Shown here piece by piece: positions 16,371 to 38,933 of a stretch of DNA of 64,000 bases. The position numbers were made by a program, and so were the translations under genes. Position 1 is the stretch's first letter; each line of letters opens with the position of its first letter. This stretch comes from Chloroflexota bacterium (GTDB lineage Bacteria; Chloroflexota; Anaerolineae; Anaerolineales; Villigracilaceae), in NCBI GenBank assembly GCA_016223135.1, contig JACRPQ010000015.1, forward strand, positions 186,001 through 250,000. The letters are read 5' to 3'. Below the pieces are notes generated by a model, which was given only the letters and a program-made list of their open reading frames with translations, did not search any database and was not told the DNA's origin.

Positions 16371-16470
16371 GGCGGGAGTGGTTAGGTCCCGGTGGGCTTC
16401 CTGGTCTTCAAAACCTGTGGCGGGTCGCGTTGCGAGCCGCGGTGGGTTCGACTCCCATCCACTCCCGCCT
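16371..16470 (+). tRNA. selC: tRNA-Sec (UCA)
   Basis: An about 100-nt tRNA-like sequence with an 8-bp acceptor stem GGCGGGAG/CTCCCGCC (the complementarity extends to 11 bp). The anticodon loop is CTTCAAA (anticodon TCA, which reads UGA). A very long extra arm (GGCGGGTCGCG-TTG-CGAGCCGC type) and a T-arm GTGGG-TTCGACT-CCCAT follow. Length, long acceptor and long variable arm are the hallmarks of selenocysteine tRNA and exclude an ordinary serine or leucine tRNA. selA, selB and selD are not in the window. The 160-nt spacer before it holds nothing recognisable except weak hairpins. Confidence 0.88.
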
Positions 16471-23021: not shown

Positions 23022-23050
23022 TTGTCAATTTCTCCCGCCGTTGGTATACT
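23022..23050 (+). promoter_or_regulatory. his operon promoter
   Basis: TTGTCA (23022-23027), a 17-nt spacer, and TATACT (23045-23050) make a near-consensus sigma-A promoter. Transcription should start about 23057, just ahead of the leader peptide ATG. Confidence 0.8.
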
Positions 23051-23060
23051 GCGTCCCACT

Positions 23061-23147
23061 ATGAAATCCTTGTTCGCGCATGTTCATCGCCATCATTTCA
23101 CCAACCCCCTGAATGACCAGGCGGTTCGTTTGCGCTTACAAGGCTGA
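23061..23147 (+). CDS. hisL: his operon leader peptide (attenuation)
   Basis: A 28-codon open reading frame, MKSLFAHVHRHHFTNP..., with four histidine codons (all CAT) at positions 7, 9, 11 and 12. It begins about 4 nt after the predicted transcription start, so it is nearly leaderless, and no ribosome site is visible. It ends with TGA at 23145-23147, 25 nt before a terminator stem that precedes hisG. His-rich leader peptides sense charged tRNA-His by ribosome stalling. Too short to be found by ordinary gene callers. Confidence 0.8.
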   Translation: MKSLFAHVHRHHFTNPLNDQAVRLRLQG

Positions 23148-23197
23148 TTTTATTCGACCTCTCTGCACAGCAAACCCCGGTCAGACCGGGGTTTTTT
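23086..23197 (+). promoter_or_regulatory. his attenuator: pause stem, antiterminator and terminator
   Basis: ATCGCC (23086-23091, inside the His codons) can pair with GGCGGT (23120-23125). The adjoining GTTTGC (23128-23133) can pair with GCAAAC (23170-23175), which includes the 5' arm of the terminator. The terminator is AAACCCCGGT (23172-23181), loop CAG, ACCGGGGTTT (23185-23194) and a T run to 23197. A ribosome stalled on His codons would cover the first segment, free the second to pair with the terminator arm and allow read-through into hisG. This is the classical enteric layout. Confidence 0.75.
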
Positions 23198-23223
23198 GTT
23201 ATCTCAAACTTGAGGAATGTATC

Positions 23224-24225
23224 ATGCCAGTAAATCCGAATATTCGTCTTTCCCTTCCTTCAAAGGGCCGCCTGCAAGAGGGAGCGCTTAATTTTCTCTC
23301 CGCCGCCGGACTTTCCGTGTTCAAGCCCAACCCGCGTCAGTATCAGGCTGAGATGCCCGCCCTGCCCGATTTGGGCGTTATCTTCCAGCGCCCCGGCGAT
23401 ATTGTTGTCAGTGTGCGCCAGGGAAGCGTGGACTTTGGTATCACCGGTCTCGACGTCATCGAAGAGAAGCGCGGCGAAAACGGAGAAGTCATCGTCTTGC
23501 ACGATGCGCTTGGTTTCGGTCACTGCGCGCTGACGCTTGCCGTCCCCGAAGGTTGGGAACAGGTTACCGATATTGCCTCGCTCAAGGCGTTTGCCGCCTC
23601 GCTCGCCCGTCCCTTGCGTGTGGCAACCAAATTTCCTGCCCTCACCGAGCGTTTCCTCAGCCGCCATGCAATTCCCCACACCCTGATTGCCGCTGAAGGC
23701 ACGCTCGAAACGGCGCCGACCATCGGCTACGCCGACATCATCTCGGACCTGGTTTCATCGGGACAGACCTTGCAGGATAACCGCCTGCGCGCCTTGCCGG
23801 ATGGGGTGATTCAACCCTCGCAAGCCGCCTTGATTGCCAACCGTAAAGCCTTGCAAAAGCGTCCCGATGTGCTGGAAATGGCGCGCCGCCTGCTCGAATA
23901 CATCGAAGCACATTTGCGCGCCAAAGACAACCTGCTGGTGGTTGCCAACATGCGCGGCGAAAGCCCCGATGCCATCGCCCAAAAGATGTTCTCGCAGACT
24001 TCTGTCGGCGGGTTGCAGGGACCGACCATCAGCCCGGTCATCACGCGTGAATCCAAGCGCGGCTGGTATTCGGTGACGGTGGTGGTACGGCGCGACCATC
24101 TTCCGCAAGCCATTGGCGAATTGAGAGCCATCGGCGGCAGCGGCATCATCGTCTCACCGCTCACCTACATCTTCGAGGAAGAGCCGCCGCGTTATCGCGC
24201 CATGCTCGCAGAGCTGCAAAAATGA
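23224..24225 (+). CDS. hisG: ATP phosphoribosyltransferase (long form)
   Basis: A 333-residue protein catalysing the first step of histidine synthesis, ATP + PRPP to phosphoribosyl-ATP. It starts PNIRLSLPSKGRL and carries GSVDFGITGLDVIEE, the PRPP region EGTLETAPTIGYADIISDLVSSG, and a C-terminal ACT-like regulatory domain (about residues 245-333), so it is the feedback-inhibited long form not needing HisZ. ATG 23224 has GAGGAATG upstream. It overlaps hisC by 4 nt. Confidence 0.95.
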   Translation: MPVNPNIRLSLPSKGRLQEGALNFLSAAGLSVFKPNPRQYQAEMPALPDLGVIFQRPGDIVVSVRQGSVDFGITGLDVIEEKRGENGEVIVLHDALGFGHCALTLAVPEGWEQVTDIASLKAFAASLARPLRVATKFPALTERFLSRHAIPHTLIAAEGTLETAPTIGYADIISDLVSSGQTLQDNRLRALPDGVIQPSQAALIANRKALQKRPDVLEMARRLLEYIEAHLRAKDNLLVVANMRGESPDAIAQKMFSQTSVGGLQGPTISPVITRESKRGWYSVTVVVRRDHLPQAIGELRAIGGSGIIVSPLTYIFEEEPPRYRAMLAELQK

Positions 24226-25313
24226 ACATCCGCCCGCATCTTGAATCCATTCCGCCGTACGTTCCCATCGAACCCTTCGAGGTTCTCTCGGCGCGTGTGG
24301 GACGTGCCCCTGAGCAAATCGTCAAACTGGACGCCAACGAGAATCCCTATGGTCCGCTGCCGGTTGTCCGCGAGGCGTTGGGCAAACTGGATTTCCCGCA
24401 CATCTATCCCGATCCCGAAAGCCGCGCCCTGCGGACTGCGCTGGCAAAGTTCACCGGCGTGGACGAGGCATACCTGCTGGCTGGCGCCGGCGCAGACGAA
24501 CTGCTCGACCTGCTCATGCGCGTCTTTCTCGAACCGGGCGACTGCATCCTCTCCTGCCCGCCCACCTTTGGGATGTATTCATTCGACGCGGGACTCAACG
24601 CCGCGCGCTGTATCGAAGCGCCGCGCAATCGGGATTTCTCGCTGGATATGGAAGCCATCCGCAAAGCCGTAGAAACATATCGTCCCAAATTGTTCTTCCT
24701 CGCCTCGCCCAACAATCCAGACGGTTCGCTGATTCCGCCCGAAACGCTGGATGAAATCTTATCCCTGCCCACGCTGGTCGTGCTGGACGAAGCCTATATC
24801 GAGTTTGCGGGCGAACATCTCGGCGCGAGTCTCAGCCGCATCCGCGAGGCGCCGCAGCGCAAAAACTTGATTGTGTTGCGCACATTCAGTAAATGGGCTG
24901 GGCTGGCAGGCTTGCGGGTCGGCTACGGCGCGTTCCCCGCCTGGCTGATGCCGACGCTGTGGAAATGCAAACAGCCCTACAACGTCAACGTGGCAGCCAG
25001 CGTTGCGGCGCAGGTCTCGCTGGCGCACGCCGCCAATCTGGAGGCAATCGTGGAGAAATTGAAAAGTGAACGGACGAGATTGCTGGCGGCGTTATCGGAA
25101 ATCCCCTATTTGCAGCCCTATCCCACCCAATCGAATTTCATCTTGTGCCGGGTGATTGAAAGAGACGCGGCGGAACTCAAATCGAAACTGGCAGCCGAGC
25201 ATGGCGTTTTTATCCGCTACTTCGACAAGCCCGGCCTGCGCGACCATATCCGCATCAGCGTGGGCAGACCGCAGGATACCGAAGTCTTACTCGATGCGCT
25301 CAGGAAGTTGTAG
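24222..25313 (+). CDS. hisC: Histidinol-phosphate aminotransferase
   Basis: A 363-residue fold-type I PLP aminotransferase. LDANENPYGP is the N-terminal signature. AGAGADELLDLLMR is the phosphate-binding region, SPNNPDGS and VVLDEAYIEFAG carry the cofactor Asn and Asp-x-x-Tyr, RTFSKWAGLAGLRVGYG contains the Schiff-base lysine, and the C-terminal arginine is in HIRISVG. It transaminates imidazole-acetol phosphate with glutamate. Coupled to hisG by overlap. Confidence 0.95.
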   Translation: MNIRPHLESIPPYVPIEPFEVLSARVGRAPEQIVKLDANENPYGPLPVVREALGKLDFPHIYPDPESRALRTALAKFTGVDEAYLLAGAGADELLDLLMRVFLEPGDCILSCPPTFGMYSFDAGLNAARCIEAPRNRDFSLDMEAIRKAVETYRPKLFFLASPNNPDGSLIPPETLDEILSLPTLVVLDEAYIEFAGEHLGASLSRIREAPQRKNLIVLRTFSKWAGLAGLRVGYGAFPAWLMPTLWKCKQPYNVNVAASVAAQVSLAHAANLEAIVEKLKSERTRLLAALSEIPYLQPYPTQSNFILCRVIERDAAELKSKLAAEHGVFIRYFDKPGLRDHIRISVGRPQDTEVLLDALRKL

Positions 25314-25372
25314 TGAGAGTGAATAGTTGAAAGTCGGCTAACCTTTGACCTTCGACTTTTGACCTGAAGGAG
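25314..25372. repeat. Short heptad array between hisC and hisB
   Basis: GTTGAAAGTCGGC is followed by about four heptads CCTTTGA, CCTTCGA, CTTTTGA, CCTGAAG. The unit type is the same as the arrays flanking hisI, and the two halves are partly inverted. Confidence 0.55.
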
Positions 25373-25377
25373 AAAAA

Positions 25378-25965
25378 ATGAGAACAGCAGACATATCCCG
25401 CCGGACAAATGAAACGCAGATTGAAATCAAACTGAACTTGGACGGCGCAGGCGCGCATGACATTTCCACCGGCATAGGTTTCCTCGACCACATGCTGAGT
25501 CACCTCGCCGTGCATGGACTGTTCGACCTGAGCCTGCAGGCAAAAGGCGACCTGCACATTGACGTTCACCACACCGTCGAAGATGTGGCGCTGGCGCTGG
25601 GGCAAGCCTTCGACGCGGCGCTGGGCGACCGCAAAGGCATCGTCCGCATGGGCGATTGTTTTGCGCCGATGGACGAGACGCTGGCGCACGTCGCGGTGGA
25701 TTTGTCCGGCAGACCCTATGCCGTTATCCAAGCCGAATGGCATACGCCCTACGTGGGAAATATCCCGGCGGCGTTATTTCCGCACTTCTTCGAGTCGTTT
25801 GCGGTGACGGCGCGCTGTAATTTGCACGCACGCGTGTTGTACGGGCGCGACGACCATCACCAGGCTGAGGCGCTGTTCAAGGCTTGGGCGCGCGCGCTGG
25901 ATATGGCGACGCAGATGGACATCAGGCGGGCGGGAAAGATTCCGTCCACGAAAGGTGTAGTGTGA
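25378..25965 (+). CDS. hisB: Imidazoleglycerol-phosphate dehydratase
   Basis: A 195-residue monofunctional HisB. The metal-binding repeats [32 protein letters not shown], and [38 protein letters not shown] are all present. It dehydrates IGP to imidazole-acetol phosphate. No phosphatase domain is fused, unlike the enteric enzyme. Preceded by AAGGAG. Confidence 0.96.
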
Positions 25966-25971
25966 TACCTA

Positions 25972-26083
25972 CCTGTGTACGTGTATACAAGTACACAGGT
26001 ACACAAGTACACAGGTACACAAGTACACAGGTACACAAGTACACAGGTACACAAGTACACAAGTACACAGGTACACAGGTAAG
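25972..26083. repeat. Octad tandem array between hisB and hisH
   Basis: About thirteen units alternating GTACACAG and GTACACAA, headed by inverted units (ACCTACCTGTGTAC). All three plus-strand frames across much of it stay open, one giving repeats of the TGTQVHKY type, because 8-bp units triple to 24 nt. It ends 11 nt before the hisH ATG. Confidence 0.85.
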
Positions 26084-26093
26084 CAAGGAAAAC

Positions 26094-26708
26094 ATGAAAG
26101 AAATCATTCTCATTGATGCCGGCACGGGGAATCTGCGCTCGGTGCAGAAGGCGCTGGAAAGCCTCGGCGCAAACGTGCAGAGAACCGATGATCCGCAAAA
26201 AGTTCGCGCGGCGAAAAAAGTTGTCCTGCCGGGCGTGGGCGCGTTCGGCGATTTCATGACGGGACTGCGGGCGCGCGGACTGGATGATGCAGTCAGGGAT
26301 GCGGCGGCGCGCGGTGTGCCGTTGCTGGGAATCTGCGTGGGGATGCAGGCGCTGTTCGAAGTCGGTGAAGAGATGGGCGAGTATAAAGGCTTGGGGTTGC
26401 TGCCAGGCAAGGTGGTGAAATTTGCCGATTCGCTGTCGGTGAAGATTCCGCATACGGGGTGGAATCAGGTCGAGGTTCAGAATGATGCGGGCTTGTTTCG
26501 CGGAATCCGTTCCGGGGCGTATGTCTATTTCAATCACTCGTATTACTGCCGGGCGTGGAATTCATCCGATGTCATCGCAACCACCGATTACGGCGACAAG
26601 TTCACGTGCGCAGTGCAACGCGAAAATATTTTCGGCGTTCAGTTTCATCCCGAAAAGAGCCAGCGGGTGGGGCTGCAACTCTTGAAGAATTTTTTGGAGG
26701 CAGAATGA
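26094..26708 (+). CDS. hisH: Imidazole glycerol phosphate synthase, glutamine amidotransferase subunit
   Basis: A 204-residue class I amidotransferase. DAGTGNLRSVQKALE is at the N-terminus, the catalytic cysteine is in LLGICVGMQALFE, and the His-Glu pair is in GVQFHPEKSQ. It delivers ammonia to HisF. ATG 26094 is chosen since AAGGAA lies 4 nt upstream; the long frame upstream is only the octad array. Stop overlaps hisA by 4 nt. Confidence 0.95.
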   Translation: MKEIILIDAGTGNLRSVQKALESLGANVQRTDDPQKVRAAKKVVLPGVGAFGDFMTGLRARGLDDAVRDAAARGVPLLGICVGMQALFEVGEEMGEYKGLGLLPGKVVKFADSLSVKIPHTGWNQVEVQNDAGLFRGIRSGAYVYFNHSYYCRAWNSSDVIATTDYGDKFTCAVQRENIFGVQFHPEKSQRVGLQLLKNFLEAE

Positions 26709-27415
26709 TTGTTTATCCCGCCATTGATTTGCGCGGCGGCAAGGTGGTGCGACTGAAACAAGGCGACCCCGCGCGCCAAACCGTTTACAGCAGCGACCCC
26801 GCCGAAACCGCGCGGCGTTGGCTGGAGGCGGGCGCGCGCTGGCTGCATGTGGTCAACCTGGACGGGGCGTTCGGTGAGAGCGAGGATGCAAATCTCTCTG
26901 CGCTCGAAGCAATTTTGAGTCTCGGCGCGTGCGTGCAATTTGGCGGCGGTCTGCGCTCGCTGGAGGCGATTGCCCGCGCGCTCGACTTGGGCGTGAGCCG
27001 CGTCATTTTGGGGACGCTCGCCGTCGAGGACCCCGCTCTGGTCGCGCAGGCGTTGACTCGCTTTGGCACGGAGAAAATCGCGGTGGGAATCGACGCGCGC
27101 GATGGACTTGTCCGCACGCGCGGATGGCAGACGGACGGCGGCGTGCCAGCCCTCGACCTCGCGCTTCAAATGCGGACCCTGGGCTTGCGTACCGTTATCT
27201 TTACCGACATCCGCCGCGACGGCTTGGGCGGCGGGCTGAACCTCCCTGCCACACGCGAACTGGCGCAGGCGAGCGGGTTGGATGCCATCGCCTCGGGCGG
27301 CGTGCATACGCTTGAGGATGTGCGCGCCGTGAAAGAGGCGGGGCTGGCGGGCGTCATCATCGGACGCGCGCTGTATGACGGCACGGTTGAGTTGGCGAGC
27401 GCGTTGAAGGTCTAA
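26705..27415 (+). CDS. hisA: ProFAR isomerase
   Basis: A 236-residue (beta-alpha)8 enzyme. It begins [21 protein letters not shown], with the catalytic Asp in AIDLRGG and the second in AVGIDARDG. Phosphate-binding motifs are FGGGLRS and [11 protein letters not shown]. Overlaps hisH (ATGA). Converts ProFAR to PRFAR. Confidence 0.95.
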
Positions 27416-27435
27416 AGTTGAAAGATTGGAGTTTT

Positions 27436-28200
27436 ATGTTGGCAAAACGAATCATCCCCTGCCTCGACATCAAGGACGGGCGCGTAGTGAAAGGCGTGAA
27501 CTTCGTCAACCTGCGCGATGCGGGCGACCCGGTGGAACAGGCGCGGCTGTATGACCAGCAGGGCGCGGACGAGTTGGTCTTCCTCGACATTTCCGCCACG
27601 CACGAGGGACGCAAGACCACGCTGGAATTGGTCAGCCGCGTGGCTGAGACGGTGTTCATGCCGCTGACGGTCGGCGGTGGAATCCGCGAGGTGGAGGACA
27701 TGCGCGGCTTGCTGCTGGCAGGCGCGGATAAGGTCAGCGTCAACTCGGCGGCGGTGCGGCGTCCCGAACTGCTCTCGGAGGGCGCGGCGCGTTTTGGCGC
27801 GCAGTGCATTGTGCTGGCGATTGACGCGCGGCGCAGGAAGAACGCGCCTGGCTGGGAAGTGTATGTCAACGGCGGGCGGATTCCAACCGGCATGGACGCG
27901 CTCGAGTGGGCGGCGCGCGGCGTGACGCTGGGCGCAGGCGAAATCCTGCTGACCAGCATGGACGCCGACGGCACACTGGCAGGCTACGACATTGCCCTGA
28001 CGCGCGCCGTTGCGGAAGTGGTCTCTGTGCCGGTCATCGCTTCGGGCGGCGCAGGGACAATGGCACACTTTGCCGAAGTCCTGACCGATGGCAAAGCCGA
28101 CGCCGCGCTTGCCGCTTCGTTGTTCCACGATGGAAAGTTGAAAATCACCGAGTTGAAGAAAGAATTGCAAAACTGCGGTGTGACGATTCGATTGAGCTGA
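27436..28200 (+). CDS. hisF: Imidazole glycerol phosphate synthase, cyclase subunit
   Basis: A 254-residue (beta-alpha)8 cyclase. It begins [23 protein letters not shown]; catalytic aspartates lie in CLDIKDG and AIDARRR, and phosphate motifs are VGGGIRE and ASGGAGTM. It makes IGP and AICAR from PRFAR and ammonia supplied by HisH. ATG 27436 with TTGGAG upstream is preferred over an upstream in-frame TTG. Confidence 0.95.
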
Positions 28201-28382
28201 AAGTCAAAGGTCAAAAGTTAAAGGTCAAAAGTCAAAAGTCAAAGGTTAAAGGTCAAAAGTTGTAACATCTGTGCTCCTTGACCTGCGACTTGCGACCTGT
28301 GACTTGCGACTTTCGACTTGCGACCCGCGACTTGCGACCTGTGACTTGAAACTTGTAACCTGTAACCTGGAACCTGAAACCT
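28200..28382. repeat. Head-to-head pair of heptad arrays between hisF and hisI
   Basis: 28200-28262 carries about nine heptads of the type AAGTCAA/AGGTCAA. 28281-28382 carries about fifteen heptads of the type TGCGACT/TGCGACC/TGTAACC in the inverse sense, and they run straight into the hisI ATG. The two halves are complementary around an 18-nt centre and could form a very long imperfect hairpin in his mRNA. Confidence 0.85.
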
Positions 28383-28694
28383 ATGGAAATCAAATTCGAC
28401 TCGAACGGACTCGTCCCCGTCATCGTTCAGGACGCGGAAACAAACGAAGTGTTGACGCTGGCATACATGAACGCCGACTCATTGCGCCTGACGCTCGAAA
28501 GCGGCGAAACATGGTTCTGGTCGCGCAGCCGCAGGGAGTTGTGGCACAAGGGCGCGACCTCCGGCAACACCCAGCGCGTGGTCGAAATCCGCGTGGATTG
28601 TGACGCCGATGCGCTGCTGGTCAAAGTCCTGCCCGCAGGACCCGCCTGTCACACCGGAAACCGCACCTGTTTTTACCGCAACATCAGATCCTAA
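28383..28694 (+). CDS. hisI: Phosphoribosyl-AMP cyclohydrolase
   Basis: A 103-residue monofunctional His[20 protein letters not shown] and [22 protein letters not shown] are family signatures. Metal ligands are in [12 protein letters not shown] and the two cysteines in [13 protein letters not shown]. It hydrolyses PR-AMP to ProFAR. Just upstream, the heptad array replaces any recognisable ribosome site. Confidence 0.95.
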
Positions 28695-30856: not shown

Positions 30857-30957
30857 CCTGTAAATAGAGATGGTATATTGTCGCTGTATTTCTTGTTTTC
30901 GGCAAGCATTTTCTTTGGGAGTACAATAACGGCATCATTATCTACAGGAGAATGTTC

Positions 30958-32481
30958 ATGACCATTACCCTCGACGGTTCATCCCTCACGATTGAAAAAC
31001 TCGTTGCGATTGCGCGGCATAACGAAAAGGTGGAACTTGCCCCCGCCGCGCTGGAGCGCATCAAAGTCTGCCGCGCCATGCTGGAGGAGAAACTTGCCGC
31101 CAAAGAAATCATGTACGGCACGAATACGGGCATTGGCGAGTTTTCGGAAGTGGTGCTGAGCGACGAACAGGTGAGGGAATTCCAAAAATACCTCATTTAC
31201 AACCATGCAGCGGGCATTGGCGAACCCGCGCCCGTCGAATATGTGCGCGCGGCGCTGGCTTCGCGGATTAATGTCCATGCGCACGGCAATTCGGGCTGCC
31301 GCCCTGAAATCACCCTGACACTGGTGGAGATGCTGAATAAAGGCGTCACACCAGTTGTTTGTCAGAAGGGGTCGGTAGGCGCAAGCGGCGACCTGGCTCC
31401 GATGGCGCAGGCGGCGCTCCTGCTGATGGGGGAGGGAGAGGCTTTTTACAACGGCGAGCGGCTGCCAGGTCACGAAGCGATGCGGCGGGCGGGGATTCCG
31501 ATTCCGGGCTTGCAGGCGCGCGACGGGCTGGCTGCCATCAACGGCTCCAATCTGCTGACTGCCATGTCCGCCATTCACATCTACGAGATGGAGCGTCTGC
31601 TCAAGCAGGCGGAAATTGCCGCGGCGATGTCCATCGAGGCGCTGCTGGGAAATCTCAAACCGTATCACGCCAAATTGCATGAATTGCGCGGCTTCAGCGG
31701 CGCGATGACCTCTGCACGCAATATCATGAAGATCATCGAAGGCTCCGACCTGACCATCGGCAGGATGAAGACCAAAGTGCAGGACGCCTACTCGATGCGT
31801 TCCACGCCGCAGGTCATCGGCGCGGCGCGCGATGCGGTGGCGTATGCCCGCTCACAAGTGGAAATCGAGCTCAACGGCGTGGGCGATAATCCCATTTTCA
31901 TCCCCGAAGAAAAGTTGACATTGACCGGCGCAAACTTCCAGGGGACTCCCGTGTCTTTGCCGATGGATATGGCAGGCGCGGCGATTACGATGGTGTGCGT
32001 CCTCTCTGAGCGGCGCATGAACCGTTTGACGAACCCGGCGCTTTCTCAGGGACTGCCGGATTTCCTTGCCCATGAACCGGGCTTCTACTCCGGGATGATG
32101 CTCAGCCAATACACCGCCGACCATTTGATCGTCGAGCAGCGGATTTTATCCGCGCCTGCAAGCATTCAATCCATCCCCGCCGCGGCAGACCAGGAGGACT
32201 TCGTCTCGATGGGCATGAACACCGCCATCAAGAACGGGCAGATCCTTGATAACGCCTATGGCGTCATTGGCATCGAATTGATGGCGGCGGCGCAGGCGCT
32301 GGACTTCCGCGAGTTCACGCCGGGACGCGGCACACAGAAGGCGCGCGAAGTCATTCGCAAGCATGTGGCGCACTTGGATGTTGACCGCCCGCTATACAAC
32401 GATCACAATGCCATGAAGGAACTTGTGAAGCGCGGGGAGATTTTGGATGAAGTAGAGAAAGTGGTGGGAAAGTTGGAGTAG
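30958..32481 (+). CDS. hutH: Histidine ammonia-lyase (aromatic amino acid lyase family)
   Basis: A 507-residue MIO enzyme. The cofactor-forming Ala-Ser-Gly lies in GSVGASGDLAPM (residues 142-144). YGTNTGIGEFS carries the catalytic tyrosine, and GDNPIFIP and GNFQ-like GANFQG are also present. The selectivity position reads YNHAAGIGEP (N82-H83), where classical HutH has Ser-His. The His keeps it closest to histidine ammonia-lyase, but tyrosine or another aromatic substrate is possible. Start 30958 has AGGAG 7 nt upstream. No hutU, hutI or hutG adjoin; the gene stands alone downstream of the biosynthetic his operon. Confidence 0.82.
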   Translation: MTITLDGSSLTIEKLVAIARHNEKVELAPAALERIKVCRAMLEEKLAAKEIMYGTNTGIGEFSEVVLSDEQVREFQKYLIYNHAAGIGEPAPVEYVRAALASRINVHAHGNSGCRPEITLTLVEMLNKGVTPVVCQKGSVGASGDLAPMAQAALLLMGEGEAFYNGERLPGHEAMRRAGIPIPGLQARDGLAAINGSNLLTAMSAIHIYEMERLLKQAEIAAAMSIEALLGNLKPYHAKLHELRGFSGAMTSARNIMKIIEGSDLTIGRMKTKVQDAYSMRSTPQVIGAARDAVAYARSQVEIELNGVGDNPIFIPEEKLTLTGANFQGTPVSLPMDMAGAAITMVCVLSERRMNRLTNPALSQGLPDFLAHEPGFYSGMMLSQYTADHLIVEQRILSAPASIQSIPAAADQEDFVSMGMNTAIKNGQILDNAYGVIGIELMAAAQALDFREFTPGRGTQKAREVIRKHVAHLDVDRPLYNDHNAMKELVKRGEILDEVEKVVGKLE

Positions 32482-38624: not shown

Positions 38625-38654
38625 AAACAGCAACAGGCGACCCCATAAAAAGCA

Positions 38655-38933
38655 TTGACAGAGGAAAGTAGGCTGGCGGAAGCCGCCAGAGAGATGGGAT
38701 GGATGCGCTGAAAGTCCCATTCGACCGAAACCAGCCGAAGTTCCCTCTCGAGCCGTTCACGTGAACGCAGCGCGGGATTAATTCCGTGCTGCCGGGTAGT
38801 GTGAACCGCAGTCCCAGCGTTACAGGGGAGGCTGATGATGGTCAGCGCTGAGTGAGCCTATTCAGGCTAATTTGGGTGGTACCGCGGGAACTCTCCCTCC
38901 CGTCCCATGTGCGGGCGGGAGTTTTTTGTTTGT
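38655..38933 (+). promoter_or_regulatory. T-box riboswitch, phenylalanine-specific
   Basis: Stem I is formed by AGAGG (38660-38664) with CCTCT, and by GGCTGG with CCAGCC. The AAAGTA bulge faces GAAG-TTC, so the specifier codon is TTC (38741-38743, Phe). The T-box sequence GGGTGGTACCGCGG is at 38874-38887. The terminator is CTCCCGTCC (38897-38905) / GGGCGGGAG (38913-38921) plus six T. Uncharged tRNA-Phe should stabilise the antiterminator and turn on pheST. Confidence 0.92.

Follow-up and report, generated by a model that had tools for sequence, protein, structure and literature searches.

A probable histidine leader-peptide attenuator with a near-leaderless start, conserved in part of the Anaerolineae

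Introduction

In enteric bacteria, the hisL region (RF00514, His_leader) combines a short ORF of His codons, competing stems and an intrinsic terminator, all placed before hisG. Another leader peptide precedes ilvBNC in Corynebacterium glutamicum, for which Morbach 2000 is reportedly the work cited. According to passages of two papers, its start codon lies one nucleotide from the transcription start with no ribosome site (PMC11857589, PMC10272879), and attenuation there has mutational support, as told in PMC11857589. Similarly, the attenuator RNA of Sinorhizobium meliloti trpL is described as starting with the AUG of the leader ORF (passages of PMC7298713), and short cysteine-rich upstream ORFs have been noted at the message start in mycobacteria, where attenuation is proposed only (passages of PMC4633059). 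Histidine attenuators have also been predicted in the Bacillus cereus group, the Eubacteriales (Peptostreptococcaceae and a relative) and the Erysipelotrichales (passages of PMC9413887, whose abstract gives 17 species). The original prediction for the locus studied here, which called such attenuation best known from Proteobacteria, therefore understates its spread into the Firmicutes.

For Chloroflexota, leaderless genes, as judged from the spacing between −10 box and start codon, were reported in 4 of 12 Chloroflexi genomes, at about 4.7% of genes (passages of PMC3160421), so such an arrangement would be unusual, not foreign, in the phylum. Among the titles, abstracts and passages of open-licence papers that were searched, we found no his attenuator and no leaderless leader peptide for his in Chloroflexota; PMC9413887 names Chloroflexi in its reference list only, and the passages of PMC4833913 mention them solely when commenting on groups represented by few genomes. 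Since the search covered open-licence papers only, this absence is no proof. Here, we describe an element upstream of hisG in the window, that is, the whole stretch of 64,000 nucleotides analysed from a Chloroflexota bacterium of the Anaerolineae, which is highly likely to be a ribosome-mediated transcription attenuator of the his operon.

Results

A leader ORF and a terminator ahead of hisG

All features of the locus lie on the forward strand. The first gene of the operon is the long form of hisG (ATP phosphoribosyltransferase; 23224–24225; TIGR00070, TIGR03455), with hisC, hisB, hisH, hisA, hisF and hisI downstream on that strand (24222–28694). The promoter (23022–23050), TTGTCA-N17-TATACT, was read directly, as the original prediction had it, and was also picked up by a consensus scan: the −35 element TTGTCA lies at 23022–23027 and, after a 17-nt spacer, the −10 element TATACT, with TG ahead of it, at 23045–23050. 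It is conserved in alignment A1, which comprises the 36 leaders of the nearest relatives out of 107. Judged by spacing, transcription would start at A23058 or C23057, leaving a predicted 5′ untranslated stretch of about 3–4 nt (23057–23060). Between this promoter and the first gene lies a short ORF with many codons for the regulated amino acid, MKSLFAHVHRHHFTNPLNDQAVRLRLQG (23061–23147; ATG at 23061, TGA at 23145–23147). Direct reading gives the 28 codons that had been claimed, with CAT at codons 7, 9, 11 and 12 (23079–23081, 23085–23087, 23091–23093 and 23094–23096).

The leader stop is separated from the hisG start by 76 nt, within which the previously proposed 10-bp stem and T-run were confirmed as an intrinsic terminator (23172–23197), composed of a hairpin with 10 pairs and a 3-nt loop (23172–23194) and the T-run. 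Its pairing is kept in 99.6% of the cells of A1. The RNA from 23057 to 23202 folds at −49.1 kcal/mol, as against −31.6 ± 3.4 kcal/mol for shuffles (z = −5.1). The hairpin ends about 30 nt ahead of hisG and forms that sequester the ribosome site without terminating are known (passages of PMC9413887), as would suit translational attenuation, in which the hairpin mainly governs access to the hisG ribosome site. The T-run after the hairpin, an intrinsic-terminator pattern kept in relatives, and the position of GAGG (23212–23215) ahead of hisG, outside the terminator hairpin, argue against this reading, which we consider improbable, and point to termination of transcription.

Other features of the window were also recorded. 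The spacers of the his operon before hisH (25983–26081) and before hisI (28200–28382) are filled by tandem repeats with a unit of 7–8 bases and multiples thereof. A histidine ammonia-lyase gene (30952–32481, forward; PRK09367, E 9e-163) lies about 2.3 kb past the operon, and a selenocysteine tRNA is encoded at 16374–16466 (forward; RF01852, 70.2 bits).

Distribution among Chloroflexota

The element was at first a single-genome observation, as a chance neighbourhood of an ORF and a terminator would be. We evaluated the regions upstream of hisG in other genomes. The hisG searches covered 41 relatives (19 matched), 396 genomes of the class (287 matched) and 400 of the phylum (309 matched), and for hisG in the named genome collection the best 80 of 156 relatives were kept. 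These provided 203 distinct upstream regions, 103 left from 127 loci after deduplication and 100 chosen by us (60 from the class, 40 from other classes), of which three were too short (L019, L034, L062), leaving 200. A leader was called as an ORF of 8–50 codons with at least three His within 8 residues, and a terminator as a terminator-like hairpin starting between 25 nt before and 110 nt after the ORF stop. Both were present in 112 of the 200 regions: 90/100 in the nearest set (L001–L127), 22/60 deeper in the class (L128–L187) and 0/40 in other classes. Ten shuffles of each region gave 7/1000, 5/600 and 1/400 in the same order, and the reverse strand gave 0, 1 and 0. With these controls and the conservation in relatives, a chance combination is exceedingly improbable.

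A called leader with terminator was missing in 10 of the 100 near regions and 38 of the 60 deeper class regions. Among the near misses, four contain a His-rich ORF with no called terminator in range (L030, L031, L038, L110), three have a candidate with two His only (L035, L039, L045) and three lack any His-rich candidate (L052, L057, L082). No Rfam family matched at 20 loci without a called leader and terminator. Firm cases came from 18 of the 32 sampled families of the class (105 loci with a family code), and other families gave none in several tries (f18 0/11, f25 0/6, f34 0/6, f30 0/5), indicating that part of the class carries the device. The leader is present in Ornatilinea apprima P3M-1 (L106) and Levilinea saccharolytica KIBI-1 (L109), both of which are in culture.

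Two side observations concern the genomes themselves. In the genus of the window genome, PF01634 (HisG family) was unmatched in 14 of 18 genomes, mostly at least 90% complete, and the his genes seem to have been patchily lost (or gained) there. The contig of L052, which has no called leader, is titled Alphaproteobacteria and carries a hisG 82% identical to that of the window; our guess is that it is misbinned.

The histidine codons of the leader peptides

The His runs of 107 leaders (here and in all 107-leader counts below, the doubtful L128, L153, L162, L040 and L161 are left out) contain 300 CAT and 167 CAC codons and no CAA or CAG, although selecting the runs for their His partly accounts for the lack of Gln. 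When the cut was tightened to four of 8 residues, His was found in 73 of 100 near regions, with Val (11) and Pro (10) next. The peptides have a median of 26 residues (13–35) and a median of five His (3–8). The density of 3–7 His within 8 residues would also fit a metal-binding small protein that happens to precede hisG. The peptides are, however, just 13–35 residues long, and in the nearest family the residues past the His run, GGTCGGGA, GACCGGGA and GACCAGGC, co-vary with the terminator arm, CCCCGACC or CCCCGGTC, which points to RNA pairing. We regard a metal-binding protein as very unlikely.

A near-leaderless start in the relatives

In 112 leaders, the promoter search covered the 80 nt ahead of the start codon plus 5 nt inside, and 110 of them yielded a promoter. 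The promoter spacer is 17 nt in 86/110, and the script score is at least 9 in 102/110. The best promoter ends 5–12 nt ahead of the start codon in 101/110, where about 10 would be expected by uniform placing; the distance from the −10 box to the ATG is exactly 10 nt in 59, and 11 leaders are outliers. CA occupies positions −4/−3 in 47 of the 59 leaders with the 10-nt distance, and Shine-Dalgarno-like 4-mers precede the leader start in only 2/112.

Since the initial choice of start codons had been partly guided by a nearby −10 box, the spacing was recounted for starts picked without regard to the promoter. If the start is taken to be the most upstream in-frame ATG, the promoter lies at 5–12 nt in 77/102 (10 nt in 45), and if it is taken to be the ATG nearest the His run, in 88/107 (10 nt in 55); the spacing is also plainly visible in the 36 leaders of A1. 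Transcription starts 6–8 nt downstream of a −10 box, and the measured spacing would thus leave a 5′ untranslated region of about 0–5 nt. The −10 box directly before the ATG, without a Shine-Dalgarno sequence, is the sequence pattern of a leaderless mRNA. Because the spacing holds even with the blind choice of starts, the predicted near-leaderless start, first noticed at the window locus, is conserved in the relatives and not an oddity of a single genome.

Competing helices

The 5′ arm of the window terminator (23176–23182) is the partner of an antiterminator strand, GACCAGG (23115–23121, within a segment to 23124 that overlaps the 3′ side of a protector stem). On A1, this helix corresponds to columns 130–136 with 210–215 and 220, and 97.6% of its cells are paired, compared with at most 64.5% when the register is slid. 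The cells changed on both sides number 32, versus 12.8 ± 5.2 in shuffled alignments, and 0/500 shuffles reach 32. Two of the five covariation measures do not exceed the shuffles, namely the pairs changed on both sides (2; reached by 331/500) and the further pair types (6; reached by 500/500). The main forms are GGTC/GACC (17) and GACC/GGTC (13), with GATC/GATC once. On the HisG tree, these changes come down to three independent pairs when supported branches are counted; of the pairs, two or three point in the same direction, none against it and the rest are neutral, which is too few for significance. The antiterminator and the terminator are mutually exclusive, with compensated pairs that stem from few independent events inside one family. 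The alignment of relatives for His codons and covariation, proposed in the original prediction, has with this reservation largely come out in its favour (112/200 regions; 97.6% paired).

Other families have other helices, such as CTCGAAGG/CCTTCGAT (L036) and ATTCGGGAGG/CCCCCCGAA (L037). Across the leaders, the segment pairs with its own arm at −13.9 kcal/mol and with the arms of other leaders at −11.25 kcal/mol. The own pairing is in the best tenth in 52/107 when segments are swapped (median rank 0.11) and in 40/107 when arms are swapped (median rank 0.14).

For the window, the register taken from the alignment contains a single mismatch, A23119/C23178. The duplex of lowest energy (−16.1 kcal/mol) leaves A23119 bulged out and, in a register moved by one position, gains GGT/ACC and TTGC/GCAA, thereby extending further 5′ along the terminator arm. 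The two pairings originally put forward, ATCGCC (23086–23091) with GGCGGT (23120–23125) and GTTTGC (23128–23133) with GCAAAC (23170–23175), are present and in order, but neither is the conserved pairing. The former sits within the 5′ hairpin of this leader. The latter was rejected as the conserved antiterminator, which is 23115–23121/23176–23182, and is close to a local extension of it, since the computed duplex comprises TTGC 23130–23133 with GCAA 23170–23173; similar extensions occur in L002 and L020.

Between the His codons and the antiterminator segment, the protector stem is formed by CCCCTG (23106–23111) with 23118–23121 and 23123–23124. It is paired in 93.1% of the cells of A1, and here too the same two covariation measures are not above shuffles (308 and 283 of 500 reach them). 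An outer stem joins GCGC at 23076–23079 to GCGC at 23132–23135, straddles the His codons, and appears in both the A1 consensus fold (36 sequences) and the single-sequence fold. RNAalifold, unaided, returned part of the protector stem together with the outer stem from the 36 sequences. A stem that overlaps the control codons and hides the antiterminator strand is therefore present, and its opening by a stalled ribosome would be the step that the model supplies.

T-boxes and leaders of other operons

The window also contains a T-box leader (38646–38910, forward; RF00230, 108.6 bits), and the ORF that follows it at 38965 matches pheS over its first 212 residues (TIGR00468, E 1.9e-35); the score is below the whole-protein cut-off because only part of the protein was given. 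Inspection by eye also shows a T-box-like leader (GGGTGGCACCACGAGA, followed by a terminator) ahead of trpE in the same genome (L232, ~1320–1375) and in L230, with no Rfam family at gathering score. The his leader could itself be a histidine- or tRNA-binding riboswitch, for instance a T-box, its His-rich ORF being a coincidence. We assign this a very small probability, as the Rfam search that finds the T-box at 38646–38910 gives no match at the his leader at gathering score, either to RF00230 or to any other family. T-box and His_leader are both missing from the window's list at E ≤ 5, and RF00514 has no match in L001, L003, L053 or L098, which were among ten loci searched. Moreover, the His-rich ORF recurs in 112/200 regions, compared with less than 1% of shuffles. 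One genome thus appears to employ T-boxes for Trp and Phe, and a leader peptide for His.

The same kind of scan was applied to trp and leu genes. Among 16 trpE loci, a Trp-rich ORF with a terminator-like hairpin was found in L228 only, and was rejected as a trp leader because it resembles part of a coding region. Among 26 PF00682 loci (a leuA-type domain, also present in other enzymes), there was one weak call, L256. The scan left out L244, L264 and L270, and early contig ends put the upstream stretch in the wrong place for L233, L254, L255 and L272, which was corrected for L233 and L254 only. The repeat for L233, considering ORFs alone, gave just two overlapping ORFs with two Trp, and that for L254 gave nothing.

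A folding model with a ribosome on the leader

We modelled the transcript cut at the end of the terminator 5′ arm, with a ribosome set on each codon in turn, whose footprint, from 15 nt ahead of the A-site codon to 12 nt past it, was barred from pairing; both this footprint and the truncated transcript were our choices. With the ribosome on codons 1–4 of the His run, the pairing between arm and leader has a modelled mean of 0.56–0.58 and peaks at the start of the run (0.58). It is nearly as high on the seven codons ahead of the run (0.47–0.57), falls to about 0.22–0.24 at 9–16 codons past the run start, and rises again to 0.42 at twenty codons, where there are fewer leaders. In 77/107 leaders, pairing is higher on the His run than on the last four codons by over 0.1, and the reverse holds in 4/107. 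The pairing at the run has a median rank of 0.82 among all windows of its leader and is in the top fifth in 60/107. In the leader of the window itself, the pairing is 0.86 at codon 12 and 0.28 at the stop. The model therefore sets the His run apart well from later codons and not from earlier ones, as would be expected if a stem closes behind the ribosome.

Swapping the terminator arms between leaders lowered the modelled pairing from 0.566 to 0.440, the cognate arm being better in 80/107 (Wilcoxon p = 3.4e-7, relatedness ignored). In a version with shuffled spacers, the stalled pairing exceeded the stop-codon pairing by more than 0.2 in 60/107 leaders, with one reversed; the corresponding numbers for 642 shuffles were 175 and 41. 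The stalled pairing was above all six own shuffles in only 41/107, and among 13 leaders listed, L006, L007, L015, L053 and L086 have a stop-codon pairing at least, or nearly, as high as the stalled pairing. This shuffle version of the folding test is only partly convincing.

Discussion

The element is real and conserved, and is very probably a his attenuator. The promoter, the ORF, its codons and the terminator are directly seen, as are both competing helices and how well they are conserved, and together they make the case strong at the level of sequence. The comparison supports the control by ribosome stalling originally proposed, for which the following steps, from the start site through translation and stalling to altered read-through, are inferred. 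Transcription would start about 0–5 nt ahead of the leader AUG (3–4 nt in the window), so that ribosomes would load at the 5′ end of the RNA without a Shine-Dalgarno sequence. When charged tRNA-His is plentiful, the ribosome would move past the His codons, the stems 23076–23079/23132–23135 and 23106–23111/23118–23124 would close behind it, or the ribosome would cover the segment, and the terminator (23172–23194) would form and end transcription ahead of hisG. When charged tRNA-His is short, the ribosome would stall at codons 7–12 and keep the stems open, allowing GACCAGG to pair with the newly made terminator arm; the terminator then could not form and hisG would be transcribed. In the absence of translation, the stems would close, making termination the default.

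We tentatively suggest, while holding it to be somewhat less than an even chance, that near-leaderless initiation has been selected as a functional part of this Anaerolineae attenuator class. The 5′-end AUG may load the first ribosome as the RNA emerges, and without loading the RNA would shut into its terminating form. If so, the switch would sense both the histidine supply and the capacity of the cell for leaderless (70S) initiation, in a phylum where our literature searches turned up no account of leader-peptide attenuation. The roughly 100 natural variants of one attenuator make the coupling of leaderless initiation, stalling and termination testable. The comparison places his leader-peptide attenuation in at least 18 of the 32 sampled Anaerolineae families. 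In addition, the seeming protein conservation of the residues after the His run tracks an RNA helix in the nearest family, a caution for surveys of small proteins.

Leader-peptide attenuation and leaderless leader peptides are each already known elsewhere, and specialists should find the element moderately surprising: the device is familiar, its host group is large and new, and its near-leaderless start hardly varies. As described in passages of PMC9413887, the Firmicutes systems likewise have a His-rich leader peptide and a terminator plus antiterminator before his operons, outside Proteobacteria; they differ in phylum, leaderless starts go unmentioned in those passages, and the likeness is one of description, not of alignment. 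The ilvBNC leader shares the start at the 5′ end, but concerns branched-chain amino acids in Actinobacteria. The trpL leader concerns tryptophan in Alphaproteobacteria, and its peptide is described as also acting in trans (passages of PMC7298713). The mycobacterial upstream ORFs are likewise rich in the codon of the regulated pathway, with cysteine instead of histidine (passages of PMC4633059). Like enteric hisL, the window has a His-codon ORF, competing stems and an intrinsic terminator ahead of hisG, whereas its four His codons form an interrupted run and its leader ATG lacks a Shine-Dalgarno sequence and lies about 3–4 nt after the predicted transcription start.
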